Assembly: GCA_030446465.1 (NCBI GenBank)
Contig: JAUJNI010000002.1
Coordinates: forward strand, 750,587 to 792,876
Direction: 5' to 3'
Length of the DNA: 42,290 nucleotides
Source: Actinomycetota bacterium
Lineage (GTDB): Bacteria; Actinomycetota; CADDZG01; WHSQ01
A program made the position numbers and the translations under genes. Below the pieces are notes generated by a model. The model ran no database searches. It was not told the DNA's origin and saw only the letters and a list, made by a program, of their open reading frames with translations. The stretch's first letter is position 1. Each line of letters starts with the position of its first letter. This document shows, one piece after another, positions 30,934 through 42,171 of the stretch.

Positions 30934-32004
30934 TCACAGTCGCTCGGTGGCGATTGCTCCGGCGGCCGCGGCGGCAAGAAACAGCTCCTGGATCTCATCG
31001 AACTTGCGTCCCATGGAGGTCGGTTCGATTCCGTGGGATCTCAGCATGCCGATCCCCGGACCTCCGTCCGCCTCCACCACATTGTGGCGTCGGTCGATGC
31101 CCGCCGCAGCGAGCTGGACCCGCACCTGTTCCAGCCACTGGTCCTGCAGGCCTGGGACCGCGACGACCGCTCGCTCGCGCGCCGCGATGGTGAGGGCCGT
31201 CAAGCTGTGGTGGCTCACTCCCCTGTGACGCTCACGGTCGTCTGCAAACGAGATCCGGAGACAGGCAATCGAGTGGCCACCGAGCGCGGTCACTGCATCC
31301 AGCACCTGGCCCTGCTCCATACCCGTGAACCCCAGCCGCGTCCCCGTTCCCACGATCCCCGGCCCCATCGCCGCAACGACGATGTCCGCTTCGGCCACGT
31401 GGCGCAACGCGACCAGCCCGCTGAAGACGTTGACGGACTCGAGGTCGCCTCCGGAGGCGTGTCCACTGGTGCAGGTCACGTCGATGAGCGCTTGGTCCTT
31501 GAGTTGCCGTACGAGGTTGCTCCAGGCCAGGGGAAGAGCAGCCCCGTCGGTCATCAGGTAGCCAACTCGTGCGTCCGGTTTCGCAGCCTTGATGCCCGCA
31601 ACCGCCGCGGCCATCTGAGAGTGCAGGCTGCACACCACTACCGGCATGCCGTCGAGCGAATCGGCGCGCACCAGCTGGTCGTGATGGGGGCTCTCCGGCG
31701 CCTCGGCGGCCAGCACCTCGGTCTGCCACGGCGTGTAGCGCATCTTGACGATGTGTCCCTCGCCCGGCTGAGGCAACGCCTTTGAGTCGAGGTTCCACAG
31801 CACGAAGCCGAAGCCTCCAGTTCCAAGGTCGAGGTCGAGCCCGGTCGTGTTGATCACGAGCATGTCGCCGACCTCTATGGATCCGACCATGGAGGGAAAG
31901 GCCGCCACCGCGACGTACTGACCGTCGACGTCGACCCTCGCTCGAAGGAGATCAGGACGCTCCTCGAGGATCTCAGTGACCCTCCCCTTGCGCCAGGAGG
32001 CCAT
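30934..32004 (-). CDS. DUF3866 family protein
   Basis: The 356-residue protein, from the ATG at 32004, matches the actinobacterial family I know as DUF3866. It begins MASWRKGRVTEILEERPDLL and contains RVDVDGQYVAVAA, the glycine-rich GLDLDLGTGGFGFVLWNL, VKMRYTPWQTEVLAAEAPES, PVVVCSLHSQM and AAMGPGIVGTGT. The fold looks like an alpha/beta protein that could bind a nucleotide or act as a hydrolase, but no role is established. Its position between pafA and pafB suggests a link with pupylation or DNA damage. It begins 13 bases after the pafA stop. Confidence 0.8.
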   Translation of the reverse strand: MASWRKGRVTEILEERPDLLRARVDVDGQYVAVAAFPSMVGSIEVGDMLVINTTGLDLDLGTGGFGFVLWNLDSKALPQPGEGHIVKMRYTPWQTEVLAAEAPESPHHDQLVRADSLDGMPVVVCSLHSQMAAAVAGIKAAKPDARVGYLMTDGAALPLAWSNLVRQLKDQALIDVTCTSGHASGGDLESVNVFSGLVALRHVAEADIVVAAMGPGIVGTGTRLGFTGMEQGQVLDAVTALGGHSIACLRISFADDRERHRGVSHHSLTALTIAARERAVVAVPGLQDQWLEQVRVQLAAAGIDRRHNVVEADGGPGIGMLRSHGIEPTSMGRKFDEIQELFLAAAAAGAIATERL

Positions 32005-32017
32005 CAGGGGACGCCCA

Positions 32018-33370
32018 CTACAGCGATGCGATGAGCTTTGTGACGCGCTCGTCGTGCGAGCGGAACGGGTCTTTGCACAACACGGTGCGCTGAGCCTGGT
32101 CGTTGAGCTTGAGGTGCACCCAGTCGACCGTGAAGTCCCTCCTCTTGCGTTTTGCGGCGCGGATGAACTCGCCGCGCAGCTTCGCCCGCGTTGTCTGTGG
32201 GGGTTCTTCCGTCGCGCGCTCGATGTCCTCCTCGTCACAGATGCGTTCTGCGAGACCGCGTCGCTCCATGAGGTAGTAGAGGCCGCGCTTTCTGTTGACG
32301 TCGTGATAGGCGAGGTCCATGAGGGCGACGCGAGGGTGAGCCAGCGACAGGCTGTGCCGTGCGCGATAGGTCTCGATCAGCTTGCGTTTTGCGATCCAGT
32401 CCACTTGGCGCTCGAGGCTGTCTTGATCGTGCTCGAGACCATGGATCGCTTGCTCCCACATGGCCGCGATTTCTTTGAGCACCGGATCGTCGCGCTGCTC
32501 GACCCACCTGATCGCCTTGTCGAGGTACTCCTTTTGCATGTCGAGGGCAGAGGCCTCCCGTCCGTTTGCCAAGCGCACCCTGCGCCGGCAGGTGGTGTCG
32601 TGCGAGATCTCCCTGATCGCTCGGATCGGGTTCTCCAGGGTCATGTCGCGAACCTGCACGCCCTCCTCGACCATGCGCAGCAACAGCGCGGTGGCTCCGA
32701 CCTTCAAATAAGAGGTCCACTCGTTCATGTTCGAGTCGCCGACGATGACGTGAAGCCTGCGAAACTTCTCCGCATCGGCATGGGGCTCGTCGCGCGTGTT
32801 GATGATTGGACGCGACCGCGTGGTGGCAGAGGAAACCCCCTCCCAGATGTGCTCGGCGCGCTGCGAGACGCAGAACAGCGCCCCCCTGGCCGTCTGCAGC
32901 ACTTTGCCGGCCCCCGCAAAGATCTGACGGGTGACGAAGAAAGGGATCATCACCTCTGCGAGCCGCCCGAACTCGCCGTAGCGCGAGACGAGGTAGTTCT
33001 CGTGGCTCCCGTAGGAGTTCCCGGCCGAGTCGGTGTTGTTCTTGAACAGGTAGATGTCGCCGGAGATGCCCTCCTCGCGAAGCCGCGCTTCCGCCGCCCG
33101 CAGGAGTCCCTCCAGGATCCGTTCGCCCGCCTTGTCGTGCACGACCACGTCGTAAACGGTGTCGCATTCCGGGGTTGCGTACTCGGGATGGGAGCCGACG
33201 TCGAGGTAGAGGCGCGCCCCATTCTCGAGGAAGACGTTGGACGACCGGCCCCACGAGACGACTCGGCGGAACAGATAGCGCGCGACCTCGTCGGGTGACA
33301 ACCTGCGCTGGCCTCTAAAAGTGCAGGTGACTCCGTACTCGTTCTCGGTTCCGAATATCCTTCGCTCCAC
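32018..33370 (-). CDS. pafA: Pup-protein ligase PafA
   Basis: PafA joins the C-terminal Glu of Pup to lysines of target proteins using ATP, marking them for the proteasome. The 450 residues begin [16 protein letters not shown], the glutamine-synthetase-like Mg/ATP-binding start. The catalytic Asp57 lies in [17 protein letters not shown]. Further motifs are [43 protein letters not shown] and [18 protein letters not shown]. It lacks the extra loop that marks Dop, so it is the ligase. It lies 13 bases before DUF3866 and is divergent from a small plus-strand gene. Confidence 0.96.
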
Positions 33371-33443: not shown

Positions 33444-33632
33444 ATGGCAGTGGTGGAAGCGGTGGTTCGCCCCCAACCGATGGAACCCGACCCGGTGGTG
33501 ACGCCGGATGACGACACCGGGATGGAGCCGGGCCCCGAGCCGCTGCCCACTCCCAGCGGCAACCCTCCGACCGACGACCCGGTCCCCGGTGACAAGGAGG
33601 GGCCGGGGGACCCGAATCCGCGGACAGCCTGA
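33444..33632 (+). CDS. small proline/acid-rich protein (62 aa), antisense in the proteasome locus
   Basis: The ATG at 33444 is preceded by AAGGAGG at 33431-33437, a near-perfect ribosome binding site with 6-base spacing. The 62-residue product begins MAVVEAVVRPQPMEPDP and is dominated by Pro, Asp, Glu and Gly, so it is probably unstructured. It sits on the plus strand in the 286-bp gap between pafA and prcA, both minus. No family is recognised. The strong ribosome binding site is the main support; the low-complexity composition is a caution. Confidence 0.5.
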   Translation: MAVVEAVVRPQPMEPDPVVTPDDDTGMEPGPEPLPTPSGNPPTDDPVPGDKEGPGDPNPRTA

Positions 33633-33656
33633 CGCTAGAGCTCTTGCGCTAGGGCT

Positions 33657-34355
33657 TTAACCCAGGAGGCTCTCAAGCTCCGGATCGTTCAGCCTTCTGA
33701 ACTTCCGGCGGGCGCGGGTTCGATCGAGCACTCCGAGCTCGAGGTCCGTCGCGGGCAGTTCGCGCTCTCCGACGGAGGTAAGCGCGGTGTGACCCAAACG
33801 AGCTGCGGCGGCGAGATCTGGAGCGTCCTTAGGGAAGTCCTTCGGGTAGTTCTGTTCGAGGTGGGCGTTGAGCGCATCCGACTGGCCCCCCATGGCGACC
33901 CACCTGGTCCGATCGGTCACCGAGCCGTCGAAGAGGATGTGGAACAGCTCGTTCTGCTCGGTCGTGTCCCCGACCGACGCAACGAGCACCTCGCACTCGT
34001 AGGGCTTCACCTCAGACGTGAAGATGGTGCCGAGCGTCTGCGAGTAGGCGTTGGCGAGCCCCTTCGCGGTGACGTCCTGGCGGGAATAGGCGTATCCCTT
34101 CAGGTCTACGAGCCGGATCCCGCCGATGCGGAGCTGCTCGTACTCGCTGAACTTGCCGACGCCGGCGAACGCGATGCGGTCGTATATCTCGGAGATCTTG
34201 TGCAGCGTTGCCGAGGTGTTCTCTGCGATGAACAGGATGCCGTCCGAGTATTCGACGGCAATCACCGACTTGCCTCGAGCGATGCCTTTGCGCGCGTAGT
34301 CGGCCTTGTCCCTCATCAGCTGCTCGGGAGACACGTAGTAACCGGGCATCGGCAT
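33657..34355 (-). CDS. prcA: 20S proteasome alpha subunit PrcA
   Basis: PrcA forms the outer rings of the bacterial 20S proteasome and gates substrate entry. The 232 residues begin MPMPGYYVSPEQLMRDKADYARKGIARG, the typical H0 helix and gating end. Then come IAVEYSDGILFIAEN and ISEIYDRIAFAGVGK, and a C-terminal helix ending ELESLLG. There is no propeptide or catalytic Thr, as expected for alpha. Its ATG lies 3 bases after the prcB stop, so the two are made together. The alpha pocket docks the ARC C-terminus (see ARC). Confidence 0.96.
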   Translation of the reverse strand: MPMPGYYVSPEQLMRDKADYARKGIARGKSVIAVEYSDGILFIAENTSATLHKISEIYDRIAFAGVGKFSEYEQLRIGGIRLVDLKGYAYSRQDVTAKGLANAYSQTLGTIFTSEVKPYECEVLVASVGDTTEQNELFHILFDGSVTDRTRWVAMGGQSDALNAHLEQNYPKDFPKDAPDLAAAARLGHTALTSVGERELPATDLELGVLDRTRARRKFRRLNDPELESLLG

Positions 34356-34358
34356 GCC

Positions 34359-35219
34359 TCAGCCCTCCTCTCCGGGCCGGCGCACGTCGACGGTGTGTGA
34401 CTCGTAGGTGAGCTGCTCCTGACGCTCGGAGATGAGTTCCTGGAACAAGGTGCGGACTTCTTCTTCCGGGAGCTCCACCATCCCCTCTGCCGAGATAGCG
34501 ACGACGGTTGGGAAGATCCCGCGCAGGAGGTCGGGCCCCCCGGTGCCGACGTCTTCGTCCGCCGCGTCGAAGAGCGCTTCTATCGAGGCCTTGATTGCCT
34601 CGTCGCGGCTCATCTCGGGGGTGAACCGCTTCTTCAGAGATCCCCGCGCGTCCTTGCCGCCCGAGCCCGTCGCATAGAAGTCATCTTCCTCGTAGCGACC
34701 GCCGGTTACGTCGTACTTGAAGATCCGTCCACGCTGTTGGGCGTCGTCGTAGCCCGCGAAGATGGGGACGACGACCAGACCCTGCATTGCGGCCGGAAGG
34801 TTGTCTCGAATCATCTGCGAGAGCTTGTTCGCCTTTCCCTCGAGGGTCAGCCGCTCCCCCTCGACCTTCTCGTAATGCTCCAGCTCGGTCTGAAAGAGCC
34901 GGACCATCTCGACCGCGGGGCCGGCTGCGCCCGCGATCGCAACCGCCGACATGTCGTCCGCGGCAAAGACCTTCTCGATCGAACGGTGCGCGATCTGGAA
35001 GCCTTCCGTTGCCCTGCGGTCACCGGCCATGATCACGCCGTCTGCGTAACGAGCGGCAAGCACGGTCGTGCCCTCGGGCACATGTAGCTGCCCCGTAGCG
35101 CTGGTGCGCGGCAGCGTCTCGGGGGCCTCCCTTCGGAGCAACTCAGAGAATGACGAGCCCGGCCCGTTTACGGGGGCCCGCAGGACATCTCCGGGGCCCT
35201 GTCCTTTGAAGTAATCCAT
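34359..35219 (-). CDS. prcB: 20S proteasome beta subunit PrcB
   Basis: PrcB forms the inner catalytic rings. The 286-residue precursor has a 50-residue propeptide; cleavage before Thr51 in EGTTVLAARYADG exposes the N-terminal Thr nucleophile. GVIMAGDRRATEG supplies the conserved Asp/Arg, and the Lys is in SIEKVFAADD. AIAGAAGPAVEMVRLFQTE matches the family, and TGSGGKDARGSLKKRF is near the C-terminus. The 112 bases between its start and the endonuclease gene upstream include a hairpin at 35324-35340 and may hold its own promoter. Confidence 0.96.
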   Translation of the reverse strand: MDYFKGQGPGDVLRAPVNGPGSSFSELLRREAPETLPRTSATGQLHVPEGTTVLAARYADGVIMAGDRRATEGFQIAHRSIEKVFAADDMSAVAIAGAAGPAVEMVRLFQTELEHYEKVEGERLTLEGKANKLSQMIRDNLPAAMQGLVVVPIFAGYDDAQQRGRIFKYDVTGGRYEEDDFYATGSGGKDARGSLKKRFTPEMSRDEAIKASIEALFDAADEDVGTGGPDLLRGIFPTVVAISAEGMVELPEEEVRTLFQELISERQEQLTYESHTVDVRRPGEEG

Positions 35220-35323
35220 GCCTGCCTTTCGAGGTCGGCGCGAGTTCGTGGTGCTGTTCGTATCGTTCGACGGGCCAGCCTATCTTGGCGGGGCCGGGTG
35301 TTCTGGTGGCCGCTGGCACTTTT

Positions 35324-35340
35324 GCTGCCTCTTAGGCAGC
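35324..35340. other. perfect 7-bp hairpin over the endonuclease stop codon
   Basis: GCTGCCT-CTT-AGGCAGC is a perfect 7-bp stem with a 3-base loop. It overlaps the TAA stop (35332-35334) of the endonuclease VII-like gene. No T-run follows on the minus strand, so it is not a classic intrinsic terminator; it could attenuate or protect mRNA ends between the endonuclease genes and prcB. Confidence 0.4.
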
Positions 35341-35733
35341 GTGCGCGGCGAGGTAGCCGAGGGCCTTGCGGAGCAACGCCACGTCGTCGCCCAGCTTGCC
35401 CAGGCCTCTGTTGCAGTTGAAGCAGAGGATGCCCCGAACAAGCCCGGTCTTGTGGTCGTGATCGACATGCACCGCTGGTTTGGTACGGCAGATGGCGCAG
35501 ACGCCACCCTGCTGAAGCTTGAGCCACTCAACTTGAACGGCGTCAACGCCATAGCGACGTTCCAGCCAGAACTGGCGAGTACTTCCGTGATGCTTTACTA
35601 CGTTGTCTCGAGTGATCTTGTTGTGGCAGGGCTTGCAATATGTCATCCGACCGCTCTTGTTCGCTCGGTTGCGGGGGAACGCCTCGTCCGGCTTGGATTC
35701 ACCGCACCGGGGGCAGCGGATGAGCTCAGGCAC
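35332..35733 (-). CDS. endonuclease VII-like HNH nuclease, copy A
   Basis: This is a recombination endonuclease VII-type HNH nuclease of 133 residues from the GTG at 35733. An N-terminal zinc-binding part has CPRCGESKPDEAF and YCKPCHNK. The nuclease core is CAICRTKPAVHVDHDHKTG, then RGILCFNCNRGLGKLGDD, with the HxDHxH-like catalytic signature and a second Cys pair. Phage T4 endo VII resolves branched DNA, but cellular roles of these small relatives are not established. It overlaps the end of copy B by 8 bases and lies just before prcB, inside the pup-prcB gap. Transcription with the proteasome genes is likely. Confidence 0.85.
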   Translation of the reverse strand: MPELIRCPRCGESKPDEAFPRNRANKSGRMTYCKPCHNKITRDNVVKHHGSTRQFWLERRYGVDAVQVEWLKLQQGGVCAICRTKPAVHVDHDHKTGLVRGILCFNCNRGLGKLGDDVALLRKALGYLAAHAA

Positions 35734-36121
35734 CGCTTTTCTCCAAGTACTCAATGGCCCGAGCAATGACTTGCGGATCGTCGCCGAACGCCCCAAGACC
35801 TGCATTGCAGTGAAGGCAGAGGATTGCTCTTACTCTTCCCGTTGCGTGATCATGGTCGACCTGAGTCGCGGGACGGACACCACACATCGCGCACATGCCA
35901 CCTTGCGCCTCGATCAGCGCTTGAACCTCGGCCGCCCCCACGCCAAACCTTTGCCTGAGGTGATAGTGACGCGTGTTCCCGTGTCGCCGTCTAATGGATT
36001 CCCTGGTTCGAGCGTTGTTACAAGCCTTGCAATATGTGTGTCGGTGACCGCCAGGAAACTCGGCGAAGGGCTTCTCCTTCCTGCAGTCGCGACACCGGTG
36101 CAAATCGGACATAAAGGTCAC
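35726..36121 (-). CDS. endonuclease VII-like HNH nuclease, copy B
   Basis: This second nuclease has the same layout: [15 protein letters not shown] and YCKACNNAR (zinc part), then [19 protein letters not shown] and [18 protein letters not shown]. It is 131 residues from a GTG at 36121 that overlaps the pup TGA (GTGA), so it is directly coupled to pup translation; an internal ATG at 36112 is also possible. It is clearly paralogous to copy A but well diverged, so the duplication is not recent. Both keep all Cys, His and Asp of the core, so both look active. The location suggests a role linked to pupylation or to the DNA-damage regulators PafBC, but that is inference. Confidence 0.85.
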
Positions 36122-36306
36122 TGACCCCCCTTTTGCACGAAAGCTCGCACAAAGTCCTCGGCGTTGGTCTCGAGAACCTCGTCGATTTCGTCCAGAAGGT
36201 CGTCCACCTCAGAAGTGGTGGACTCGGCCGTCGCCGTCTCTTCGGCCTGGGCCTGAACCTCTTCTTCGTCCTTCTTGGGCCTGGGTTTGCGGGTCTGCTC
36301 TGCCAT
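36118..36306 (-). CDS. pup: prokaryotic ubiquitin-like protein Pup
   Basis: Pup is the 62-residue tag. It is intrinsically disordered with a Lys/Arg-rich start ([16 protein letters not shown]), an ARC-binding coiled segment ([23 protein letters not shown]), and ends KGGQ. The C-terminal Gln means Dop must deamidate it to Glu before PafA can use it. The stop overlaps the endonuclease copy B start. The gene lies about 390 bp from dop, and a small plus-strand frame sits in that gap. Confidence 0.97.
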
Positions 36307-36696
36307 CTCTCACCTCACCTTCCCGTTGAAGAATCCTACCCGTGGCCTACGACACCACTAGGAGTTCGCTTGCGACCCCGTGTACGCTGCTTCCATGGGA
36401 CGGGAGAGTGGCCTCAATGAAGATGCGGTCAGCGGTGGGCTGGTGCGACGAGTCTACCCGCCCCCCTTTGAAACCCGCACGTTCCTCATGAGCTTCAACC
36501 ACGGGGTTCACTGGGACAAGGCTCTGCGTATCTCAGCAGAGATAGAAGACGAAGAGCTAAGTCGCAGGCTATCGATGGGCAAGTGATCAGGCAAACGTAA
36601 CAACGCAGCCAGCCGCTGCGGAGCGGGCTTGGCTGGGGCAACCCGCGGCGGGAGTGCTGGACCCTACCGATCGTCACCCGGCCGGCAGGTGCGGGC
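36307..36696. other. 390-bp gap between pup and dop
   Basis: The space between the pup start and the dop stop is unusually large for this locus. It holds the probable pup promoter just upstream of 36307, a possible small plus-strand gene (36395-36586), and at 36609-36636 a 6-bp inverted repeat (CCAGCC / GGCTGG, 16-base loop) between that gene and dop. Nothing else is evident. Confidence 0.4.
36395..36586 (+). CDS. hypothetical small protein (63 aa)
   Basis: On the plus strand, ATG 36395 (or GTG 36380) opens a frame whose product contains VRRVYPPPFETRTFLMSF and HWDKALRISAEIEDEELSRRLSMGK. The second part reads like a natural amphipathic helix. There is no good ribosome binding site, no membrane segment and no recognised family. 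It is opposite in direction to pup and dop. The call is weak; reading-frame composition is the only support. Confidence 0.35.
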   Translation: MGRESGLNEDAVSGGLVRRVYPPPFETRTFLMSFNHGVHWDKALRISAEIEDEELSRRLSMGK

Positions 36697-38178
36697 TCAG
36701 GCCCCCAGGTTGCGGATCAAGGATCCTGCGTCGGGGCTACTCTCCAGCAGGTCCTGGACGTGCGCCTTGGTGCCACGTGTCGGCTCCAGCGTCGGCACCT
36801 TGCGCAGCGGCTCGTCGCCGGTGTCGAAGATGAGTGCGTCCCAGGATGCGGCCATGATGCGGGGGTTGAAGCGGCGCAGGCACTCGCCACGGAAGTAAGC
36901 GCGGGTGTCCTCGGGAGGATGATCGACGGCGTAAGCGATCTCCTGCTCCGTCACAATCCGGTCGATCTTTCCAGACGAGAGCAGCTTGTAGTAGAGGCCC
37001 TTGGCGCGCCGCACGTCGTGGTACTGGAGGTCGATCATCTTCAGCTTGGGGTCGTCCCACGCAAGTCCGTCACGGTCCCTATACGCCTCCATTAGCTGCA
37101 GCTTCGCCACCCAGTCGAGCTGTCGCGCCAGTGACATGGGATCCGTCTCGAGCCCTTCCAGGACTTGCTCCCACAGTTCGATGACATCTCGGTCGACGTC
37201 GGTTGCGTCGTTGTCCTTGGTGTACTTCTTGGCAAGGCGGAGGTACTCCCACTGAAGGTCCACTGCGGTCAGCGCCCGGCCCTCCATCAGCTCTATGGCG
37301 AGCCGGCAGGATGGGTCGTGCGACACCCTGCGCATCGAGCGCACCGGCTCCCGCAGCGTGAAGTCGTCGGTGATGAAGTCGTCTTCGATCATCTTCAAGA
37401 TCAACGCGGTGGTCCCGAGCTTTAGATACGTCGAGGTCTCGGACATGTTGGCGTCGCCGACGATGACATGGAGGCGCCGGTAGCGCTCGGGATCCGCATG
37501 CGGCTCGTCGCGCGTGTTCATGATGGGTCGCTTGAAGGTCGTTTCGAGGCCGACCTCCACTTCGAAGAAGTCGGCCCGTTGTGAGAGCTGGTAGTCGACC
37601 GCATCGCTCGAGTTCTCGGCCCCCACCTTGCCTGCGCCGGTGAACACCTGACGCGTGACGAAGAAGGGAATGAGGTGCTTCACGAGTTGGGGAAAGGGAG
37701 TCTTTCTATCGACGAGGTAGTTCTCGTGGCAGCCGTAGGAGTTCCCCTTACCGTCCGAGTTGTTCTTGTAGATAAAGACCTGCTCTTGATTCGGGATGAT
37801 GGCGCGGGCAGCGTCTATGGAGTCCTCGAGGATGCGCTCCCCCGCCTTGTCCCACACGACCACGCTGCGCGCGTTGGAGCACTCGGGGCTCGAGTACTCG
37901 GGGTGTGCGTGATCCACGTAATAGCGGGAGCCGTTCGGGAGGATGATGTTGACGAGTCCCGAATCTTCTTCCGACGTCGTCTCCACAGGACCCCGGTCGA
38001 AGCCCCGCGCGTCGCGCAGGGGGCTCTCCTCTTCGTAGTCCCACTTGACCCTCTTGAAAGCCGGTTTGGCATAGGCATTGATGAGCAGAGACGAGGTCAA
38101 TATCGGGTTGAACTCGCCGGACCCTCGGATCGAGATCCCGTACTCGGTCTCGATGCCGCAAACCTTGGGGAACGCCAT
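36697..38178 (-). CDS. dop: Pup deamidase/depupylase Dop
   Basis: Dop deamidates the C-terminal Gln of Pup and removes Pup from targets. The 493 residues begin MAFPKVCGIETEYGISIRG. The Dop-specific loop occupies about residues 42-72 (WDYEEESPLRDARGFDRG), absent from PafA. The catalytic Asp89 is in RYYVDHAHPEYSSPEC. FIYKNNSDGKGNSYGCHENYL and [28 protein letters not shown] match the fold shared with PafA. It follows the ARC gene by 29 bases. Confidence 0.96.
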   Translation of the reverse strand: MAFPKVCGIETEYGISIRGSGEFNPILTSSLLINAYAKPAFKRVKWDYEEESPLRDARGFDRGPVETTSEEDSGLVNIILPNGSRYYVDHAHPEYSSPECSNARSVVVWDKAGERILEDSIDAARAIIPNQEQVFIYKNNSDGKGNSYGCHENYLVDRKTPFPQLVKHLIPFFVTRQVFTGAGKVGAENSSDAVDYQLSQRADFFEVEVGLETTFKRPIMNTRDEPHADPERYRRLHVIVGDANMSETSTYLKLGTTALILKMIEDDFITDDFTLREPVRSMRRVSHDPSCRLAIELMEGRALTAVDLQWEYLRLAKKYTKDNDATDVDRDVIELWEQVLEGLETDPMSLARQLDWVAKLQLMEAYRDRDGLAWDDPKLKMIDLQYHDVRRAKGLYYKLLSSGKIDRIVTEQEIAYAVDHPPEDTRAYFRGECLRRFNPRIMAASWDALIFDTGDEPLRKVPTLEPTRGTKAHVQDLLESSPDAGSLIRNLGA

Positions 38179-41417: not shown

Positions 41418-41519
41418 TGGCCTCTCCACTTCTATCCGCCCAAGTTTGGTGCTTACCGTCTCAACCCTATACCTGTATTTACCAACTCTGCGCGTTCGGG
41501 TGTGGTCCCTCTGGTGGGA

Positions 41520-41531
41520 TATGCTGGCATA
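41520..41531. promoter_or_regulatory. palindrome upstream of the second antitoxin, candidate operator
   Basis: TATGC-TG-GCATA is a perfect 5-bp inverted repeat with a 2-base centre, ending 5 bases before the antitoxin ATG. It would cover the ribosome binding region. Ribbon-helix-helix antitoxins usually repress their own operon by binding such a site. Binding is inferred. Confidence 0.45.
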
Positions 41532-41536
41532 CCACC

Positions 41537-41761
41537 ATGAAGAGAACGACCGTGAAATTGCCCGACGAGCTCGACGCTCGACTTCGACACGAGGCCGAGC
41601 GCCGGGGGACCACCGTGTCTCAGTTGACGCGACAAGCAATCGAGGGGCTCTTGGGCGCCGGAGGAAAGCGACGTCTCGGTGCGGCTAAAGCCGGCCGAAG
41701 TGGCGAGGCCGACGTATCGGAGCGGATCGAAGAGATCCTGTCCCGCGAGGTCGATCGATAG
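41537..41761 (+). CDS. ribbon-helix-helix (VapB-like) antitoxin
   Basis: This 74-residue antitoxin starts MKRTTVKLPDELDARLRHEA, the RHH strand-helix, then RRGTTVSQLTRQAIEGLLG, the second helix. The C-terminal part, SGEADVSERIEEILSREVDR, is a charged helix suited to binding the toxin. The ATG at 41537 lies just after a palindrome (41520-41531), and an extension further upstream would have poor composition. The TAG at 41759-41761 overlaps the toxin's first codon. Together with the next gene it forms a standard VapBC module. Confidence 0.8.
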   Translation: MKRTTVKLPDELDARLRHEAERRGTTVSQLTRQAIEGLLGAGGKRRLGAAKAGRSGEADVSERIEEILSREVDR

Positions 41762-42171
41762 CGCTCATCGTCGATTCTGGACCGCTTTACGCATACGTGG
41801 ATGCCGATGACCGAAACCACCAACAGTGCCTCGAGCTGCTCGAGACCCATTCCGGTCCTCTACTGGTACCGGTCCTGTGTGTGACGGAAGTCGCGTCCTT
41901 GGTGCAGTCCCGACTGGGCCCGAAGGCAGAGGTTCGGTTCCTTGGCGACCTTGCAAGCGGCGTGCTCGTTCCCGAGCCGCCCGCCCCGGCTGATTGGCTG
42001 AGAATCGCCGAGCTGGTGTGGGAGTACCGCGATCTGCCCCTTGGTGCTGTGGACGCCTCAGTCGTGGCTGCCGCGGAAAGGCTGCAGCAAGCAGTGATAG
42101 CAACGCTTGATCGAAGACATTTCAGCGTCGTACGCCCTCGGGGGCTCGCCGCATTGGAGCTGCTGCCCTGA
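41758..42171 (+). CDS. PIN-domain ribonuclease toxin (VapC-like), non-standard start
   Basis: This 137-residue PIN nuclease is the likely toxin of the module. All four acidic positions are present: LIVDSGPLYAYVDADD, VLCVTEVASL, LGAVDASVVAAAERL and ATLDRRHFSVVRP. VapC toxins cut tRNA or rRNA and need Mg. The frame has no ATG, GTG or TTG before the first catalytic Asp; the expected Met is at the ATA 41758-41760, which overlaps the antitoxin TAG (ATAG), followed by GCG (Ala). The first standard start, GTG 41797, would delete the catalytic Asp. Start use is therefore an open question; the rest of the protein is intact. Confidence 0.8.
   Translation: MALIVDSGPLYAYVDADDRNHQQCLELLETHSGPLLVPVLCVTEVASLVQSRLGPKAEVRFLGDLASGVLVPEPPAPADWLRIAELVWEYRDLPLGAVDASVVAAAERLQQAVIATLDRRHFSVVRPRGLAALELLP

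Follow-up and report, generated by a model that had tools for sequence, protein, structure and literature searches.

Two endonuclease VII-like genes between pup and prcB as a possible homing-like cassette in the actinobacterial Pup-proteasome operon

In the window analysed here, by which we mean the whole stretch of 42,290 nucleotides, two genes for endonuclease VII-like proteins lie between pup and prcB. This raises the question of what a pair of nucleases does inside the operon of the Pup-proteasome system. An earlier note on this sequence had suggested that nuclease action is linked to pupylation or to the damage response. The reading that we favour, with a probability that we place just on the better side of even, is that the two genes (copies A and B) form a fixed-site, recombining, homing-like cassette of free-standing HNH endonucleases, represented here by two old paralogues; cleavage and homing are what we infer from the comparison with relatives.

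Two paralogous nuclease genes in the Pup-proteasome operon

The genes of the locus follow each other on the minus strand in the order dop, pup, copy B, copy A, prcB, prcA and pafA:

36697..38178, minus strand: dop, identified by PF03136 (E 1.9e-184) and its position preceding pup
36118..36306, minus strand: pup, encoding a C-terminal ...KGGQ (CAG TGA); PF05639, E 6.2e-22
35726..36121, minus strand: copy B, zinc ribbon and HNH nuclease of 131 aa; PF02945, E 4.9e-23; phrog_2633 endonuclease VII, E 6e-33; groups with the B-type rows of the tree
35332..35733, minus strand: copy A, zinc ribbon and HNH nuclease of 133 aa; PF02945, E 1.9e-22; AlphaFold2 model available
34359..35219, minus strand: prcB, proteasome beta subunit; PF00227, E 2.9e-38
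33657..34355, minus strand: prcA, proteasome alpha subunit; PF00227, E 9.3e-15
32018..33370, minus strand: pafA, Pup ligase; PF03136, E 6.8e-166

Positions, PF02945 matches and alignment confirm the earlier description of two paralogous HNH nucleases with complete residues between pup and prcB. Copies A and B are identical at 59 of 128 positions (46%, E 2e-41). Their Endonuclease_7 (PF02945) scores of 81.3 and 79.4 bits exceed the Pfam curated cut-off of 23.6, and the genome to which the window belongs contains no further PF02945 match. Eight zinc cysteines, four of them in the N-terminal ribbon, and the D-H-H-N residues do not vary in any of the 32 aligned linked sequences; the conserved residues of the HNH part are, in the numbering of copy A, C79, C82, D91, H92, H94, C104, C107 and N108. 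The comparison thus confirms two diverged paralogues with complete predicted catalytic residues and a constant position within the pup-proteasome operon.

The catalytic and zinc residues of the HNH part align to those of the T4 endonuclease VII structure 1e7d. In the AlphaFold2 model of copy A (pLDDT 93), the C-terminal HNH part matches T4 endonuclease VII (1en7) with a Z of 7.1 over 75 residues, and the HNH domain matches Hpy99I (3fc3) with a Z of 6.3 over 73 residues. These values are middling, yet they head the list of matches and are consistent with the sequence comparison. The model aligns to residues 1–100 of T4 endonuclease VII only, and the C-terminal helical dimer part lies beyond. 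A and B resemble T4 endonuclease VII (PF02945, 1en7) in the HNH catalytic and zinc residues and in fold, whereas they carry an additional zinc ribbon and helices at the N terminus and end where T4 residues 101–157 would follow.

By E-value, the best Foldseek match of the copy A model is Hpy99I, a beta-beta-alpha-Me type II restriction enzyme. This match favours an alternative in which A and B are defence or restriction-type HNH nucleases related to Hpy99I that cut incoming DNA, with the junction as a convenient expressed slot. A PADLOC restriction-enzyme model also matches both copies (E 2.5e-9 for B, 5e-7 for A), but only in the shared HNH stretch of about 50 residues. Likewise, the likeness to Hpy99I is in the HNH domain, whereas the N-terminal part of A and B lies outside it and no methylase partner is known for them; by eye, no DNA methylase was noticed among the open reading frames at 30–42 kb of the window.

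Concerning the boundaries of the genes, copy B begins at a GTG that is made of the last Gln codon of pup (CAG) and its TGA stop, and an alternative ATG lies 9 nt further on. The GTGA overlap with pup that had been put forward as coupling is weak evidence of it because the overlap is built from the Pup CAG and TGA, and CAGTGA also ends pup in the endonuclease-free relatives L046 and L049. Copy A starts at GTG 35733 and overlaps the end of copy B by 8 nt, as described before. A 157-aa frame from 35805 was discarded as copy A, being merely the longest open frame. Copy A and prcB are uncoupled in the window, with 112 nt between them; in four relatives (L006, L010, L011 and L013), the stop of copy A and the start of prcB overlap as ATGA. 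We found no promoter-like or terminator-like sites at 33500–36800 of the window. Co-expression of the nuclease genes with the pup-proteasome operon is plausible from this arrangement.

Some further features were observed in passing. In relative L010 (G046), the stop that should follow KGGQ is missing and the Pup frame continues for about 46 codons, which reflects either a sequence error or a C-terminally extended Pup. By eye, the plus strand at 41500–42171 of the window holds frames resembling a vapBC-type antitoxin and PIN toxin pair, and a DUF3866-like gene lies on the minus strand at about 30934–32000, between pafA and a WYL-type (PafB/PafC-like) gene.

Presence, decay and selection at the pup-prcB junction

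Among 296 Actinomycetota genomes sampled across the phylum, 126 encode Pup, and the junction was examined in all of these. It is empty in 82 genomes, holds one nuclease gene in nine and two in six (a class that takes in L013, or G032, where the zinc ribbon of copy A is in another frame), and contains a remnant in six and another insert in four; the remaining 19 were left unclassified, with no prcB near pup on the stretch examined. A nuclease gene, pair or remnant is thus present in 21 of the 126 Pup-bearing genomes. Given these counts, single copies are not rare: a single endonuclease VII-type gene between pup and prcB is common and not unusual, in agreement with the earlier note. Pup or prcB adjoins a PF02945 gene in 72 of 86 loci, a figure that is enriched since it comes from the best-scoring PF02945 matches only. 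Where the cassette is absent (82 loci), the gap between pup and prcB spans 23–152 nt (median 53); in the 14 loci of the phylum sample with an intact cassette and a prcB it spans about 500–1080 nt, and in G081 no prcB follows the pair within the stretch examined.

Pairs occur in four genera of the family of the window, in one of which copy A is broken, and another family of the class contributes a single genome with a pair. Furthermore, two HNH domains are fused in one junction protein in family f85 (L136, L141 and L144) and in one Actinomadura (L032). Other inserts were also seen at this place. In L060 and L064 (genus g15), a glycine-rich protein with a signal-like start fills the slot, and in L187 (f55) the gap contains another insert, about 900 nt long, that has no nuclease match.

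In Streptomyces, decay is frequent. The 115 classified loci comprise 43 with an intact nuclease gene, 45 with a decayed one, 15 with a longer gap without a detectable nuclease, 10 with none and two undecided; a stricter motif gave 42 intact and 46 remnants, which the tally of 43 and 45 supersedes. These loci come from 121 genomes; one of the rest has no Pup match, and G298, G306, G320, G368 and G375, which also stand outside the tally, have a PF02945 match of 77–82 bits at about 600 nt or less from pup. Pup and prcB are retained where the nuclease has decayed.

The intact Streptomyces copies have a median dN/dS of 0.23 (474 pairs), compared to 0.09 for PrcB in the same pairs. In the family of the window, L006 and L011 differ by about 0.13–0.17 at nonsynonymous sites and by at least 1 at synonymous sites, which are saturated for copy B. 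These substitution patterns indicate that the nuclease proteins are kept working by purifying selection wherever they are retained. The Streptomyces gene, for instance in L003, overlaps the start of prcB by about 50 nt out of frame, so that its last residues are constrained by the prcB N terminus. The conserved C-terminal APGVYQLPS tail of decayed Streptomyces copies was rejected as a retained signal, since it results from reading the prcB N terminus in another frame.

The numbers of remnants and intact genes in Streptomyces (45 versus 43) and the phage relatives of the nucleases would fit a neutral relic, that is, an old phage-derived nuclease that is stuck in the operon, decays and is moved passively by recombination between pup and prcB. 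We consider this very improbable, as the intact copies have a dN/dS of well below one, their catalytic residues are invariant and the exchange tracts described below stop about 60 nt or less from the gene.

Alternatively, the nuclease could have a function within the operon, acting on branched DNA and having its amount or its removal linked to pupylation, for instance during DNA repair. The genes lie on the same strand, their ends overlap those of neighbours in relatives, they are under purifying selection and the A/B pair is kept in two families. In addition, excerpts of PMC6466877 describe PafBC, whose genes accompany pafA in M. tuberculosis, as controlling the damage response. We nevertheless judge a role in the operon improbable, and the step proposed in the earlier note is not supported by the distribution: the nuclease is absent or decayed in most pup-prcB loci, with 82 of 126 junctions empty and 45 of 115 decayed in Streptomyces, and its alleles move largely independently of both neighbours. 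Nor did PafBC-type promoter sites exceed chance: the window holds two matches with two mismatches, against 1.87 expected, and we dropped control of the nuclease genes by PafBC as a candidate. Furthermore, the word 'endonuclease' is absent from the excerpted main text of three pupylation papers (PMC2588565, PMC3511204 and PMC6466877). Although the operon is much studied, these excerpts do not mention the junction as a slot for recombining nuclease genes, and we found no report of a pup-linked endonuclease VII in the open-licence literature; subscription papers may differ.

Exchange of nuclease alleles between relatives

To describe the inheritance of the nuclease, we compared 57 intact Streptomyces loci, dropping L118 from the distance and discordant-pair comparisons due to a poor prcB alignment. 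The Mantel correlation is 0.62 between the upstream flank and prcB, and 0.31 and 0.30 between the nuclease and the flanks; the correlation of nuclease and prcB is weak, yet above all 499 permutations. For the locus that is nearest by prcB, the median rank among 56 is 1 when judged by the upstream flank but 22 when judged by the nuclease, and its nuclease falls in the same cluster in only 17 of 58 Streptomyces cases.

Individual pairs illustrate this pattern. In L007/L098, L092/L302 and L005/L018, the flanks are mostly 90–100% identical, whereas most of the cassette is about 50–67% identical, with a short island at the HNH core as an exception in the first two pairs. The third pair lies outside Streptomyces, in genus g60; here, L005 has one B-type gene, and L018 has in the same place an A-type gene and a broken second copy. 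The nucleases of L007 and L098 share 61% identity, whereas L007 shares 89% with L135 and L098 shares 97% with L003. Whole alleles have thus moved, by swapping and not by fast divergence. When 28 discordant pairs were compared to 27 concordant pairs, the fall in identity was concentrated in the final 60 nt of pup (0.76 versus 0.88 in the last 30 nt), and no clear drop was found in prcB. We conclude from these alignments that nuclease alleles are exchanged largely independently of the flanking pup and prcB in Streptomyces and in one g60 pair, which are the taxa covered by this comparison, as the family of the window had no close enough pair. A tie between nuclease allele type and a Pup ending in Q or E was considered and found inconsistent (14 E to 2 Q in Streptomyces cluster 4; 14 E to 15 Q in cluster 3).

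Overall, the relatives show a constant site, block replacement by recombination between near-identical flanks, purifying selection, and frequent decay or loss. Of the mobility and random location that the earlier note had set against its own proposal, the first was found as exchange of alleles, while the location is one fixed place.

Allele exchange together with purifying selection is also what the defence alternative expects, in which swapping reflects selection for varied specificity. One fixed site with frequent decay is, however, less typical of defence islands, and we regard this alternative as unlikely.

The reading as a homing-like cassette would explain the same observations as follows. 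A and B would be free-standing HNH endonucleases residing at the pup/prcB junction, the one fixed site that their lineage holds in Actinomycetota. Close to the pup 3′ end, the nuclease would cut alleles with no cassette or a different one, and the cassette would be copied in when the carrier allele serves as template for repair, which amounts to intron-less homing. By overlapping with neighbouring frames, the cassette could ride on the pup-prcBA transcript, with neither gene broken. A and B may work independently of each other or together as a heterodimer. Homing-like behaviour is suggested by the combination of genes that are intact or gone, one address, movement as a block, tracts that end within tens of bases, overlap with neighbours, and phage relatives that are similarly placed. 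As in free-standing homing endonucleases, the genes are positioned between conserved genes with overlaps and are present, absent or decayed at one site; inheritance independent of the flanks was found in Streptomyces and in the g60 pair. Against homing, part of this pattern would also be expected if a useful gene were exchanged by ordinary recombination, and the correlation of nuclease and prcB, weak as it is, lies above all permutations. Furthermore, families f1 and f2 both retain the A/B split with its gene order, which is longer than a simple parasite might keep two copies.

Age of the pair and comparison with known systems

In a tree of 62 HNH domains, the A-type copies of f1 and f2 are split from the B-type copies (support 99/92), and the B-type rows group with single copies from f12, f56, f81 and Streptacidiphilus. 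As the A-type and B-type copies of both families fall on separate sides of the tree, the A/B duplication is apparently older than the separation of f1 from f2. In f85, the fused pairs cluster together and apart from the A/B rows (95/92), and thus look like a separate duplication. A single origin of 46 pup- or prcB-linked HNH domains was not rejected (p-AU 0.44). The PrcB tree contains 10 changes of state, which is not a rate, since the tree is enriched for endonuclease carriers found via PF02945; its 13 hand-chosen Streptomyces rows are all scored as carriers, including five without a nuclease match. An obligate A+B heterodimer was rejected, as either partner can be lost: L016 has copy A alone, copy A is frame-broken in L013 and the second copy of L018 has an in-frame deletion.

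A more far-reaching version of the homing-like reading, which we hold tentatively and with some doubt, is that of a long-lived chromosomal homing nuclease, or natural gene drive, at the end of pup across the Actinomycetota. It would travel as an exchangeable cassette, rewrite the pup 3′ end in doing so and have given rise at least twice to two-nuclease forms, namely the coupled paralogues in the class of the window and the fused double-HNH proteins in f85, possibly as heterodimers that cut both strands. If homing is true, the junction would offer a testable natural gene drive inside a bacterial core operon, and it would caution against inferring function from membership in an operon and against relying on the 3′ ends of pup as vertical markers.

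The closest known parallel is found in phage T4, where, according to excerpts of PMC2988022, free-standing homing endonucleases adjoin or overlap conserved phage genes, including by start-stop overlap, and have their target in the neighbouring gene; for A and B, the corresponding target would be the end of pup. A and B resemble the T4 mob/seg genes (for instance MobE at nrdA/nrdB) in being of the HNH type (as in mob), lying between conserved genes and having a start that overlaps the upstream stop, as described in the same excerpts. They differ in that they are chromosomal, belong to a bacterial proteasome operon, stand as two paralogues in series and have an N-terminal zinc ribbon, and in that their homing is a prediction.

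The best phage rows share 39–45% identity with A and B. The phrog_2633 genes of T7-like and actinobacterial phages match over nearly the whole length, including the ribbon; unlike A and B, they lie in phage genomes, as a single copy in the five stretches examined and with no pup linkage. In most of these five stretches, the nuclease gene adjoins or overlaps conserved phage genes.
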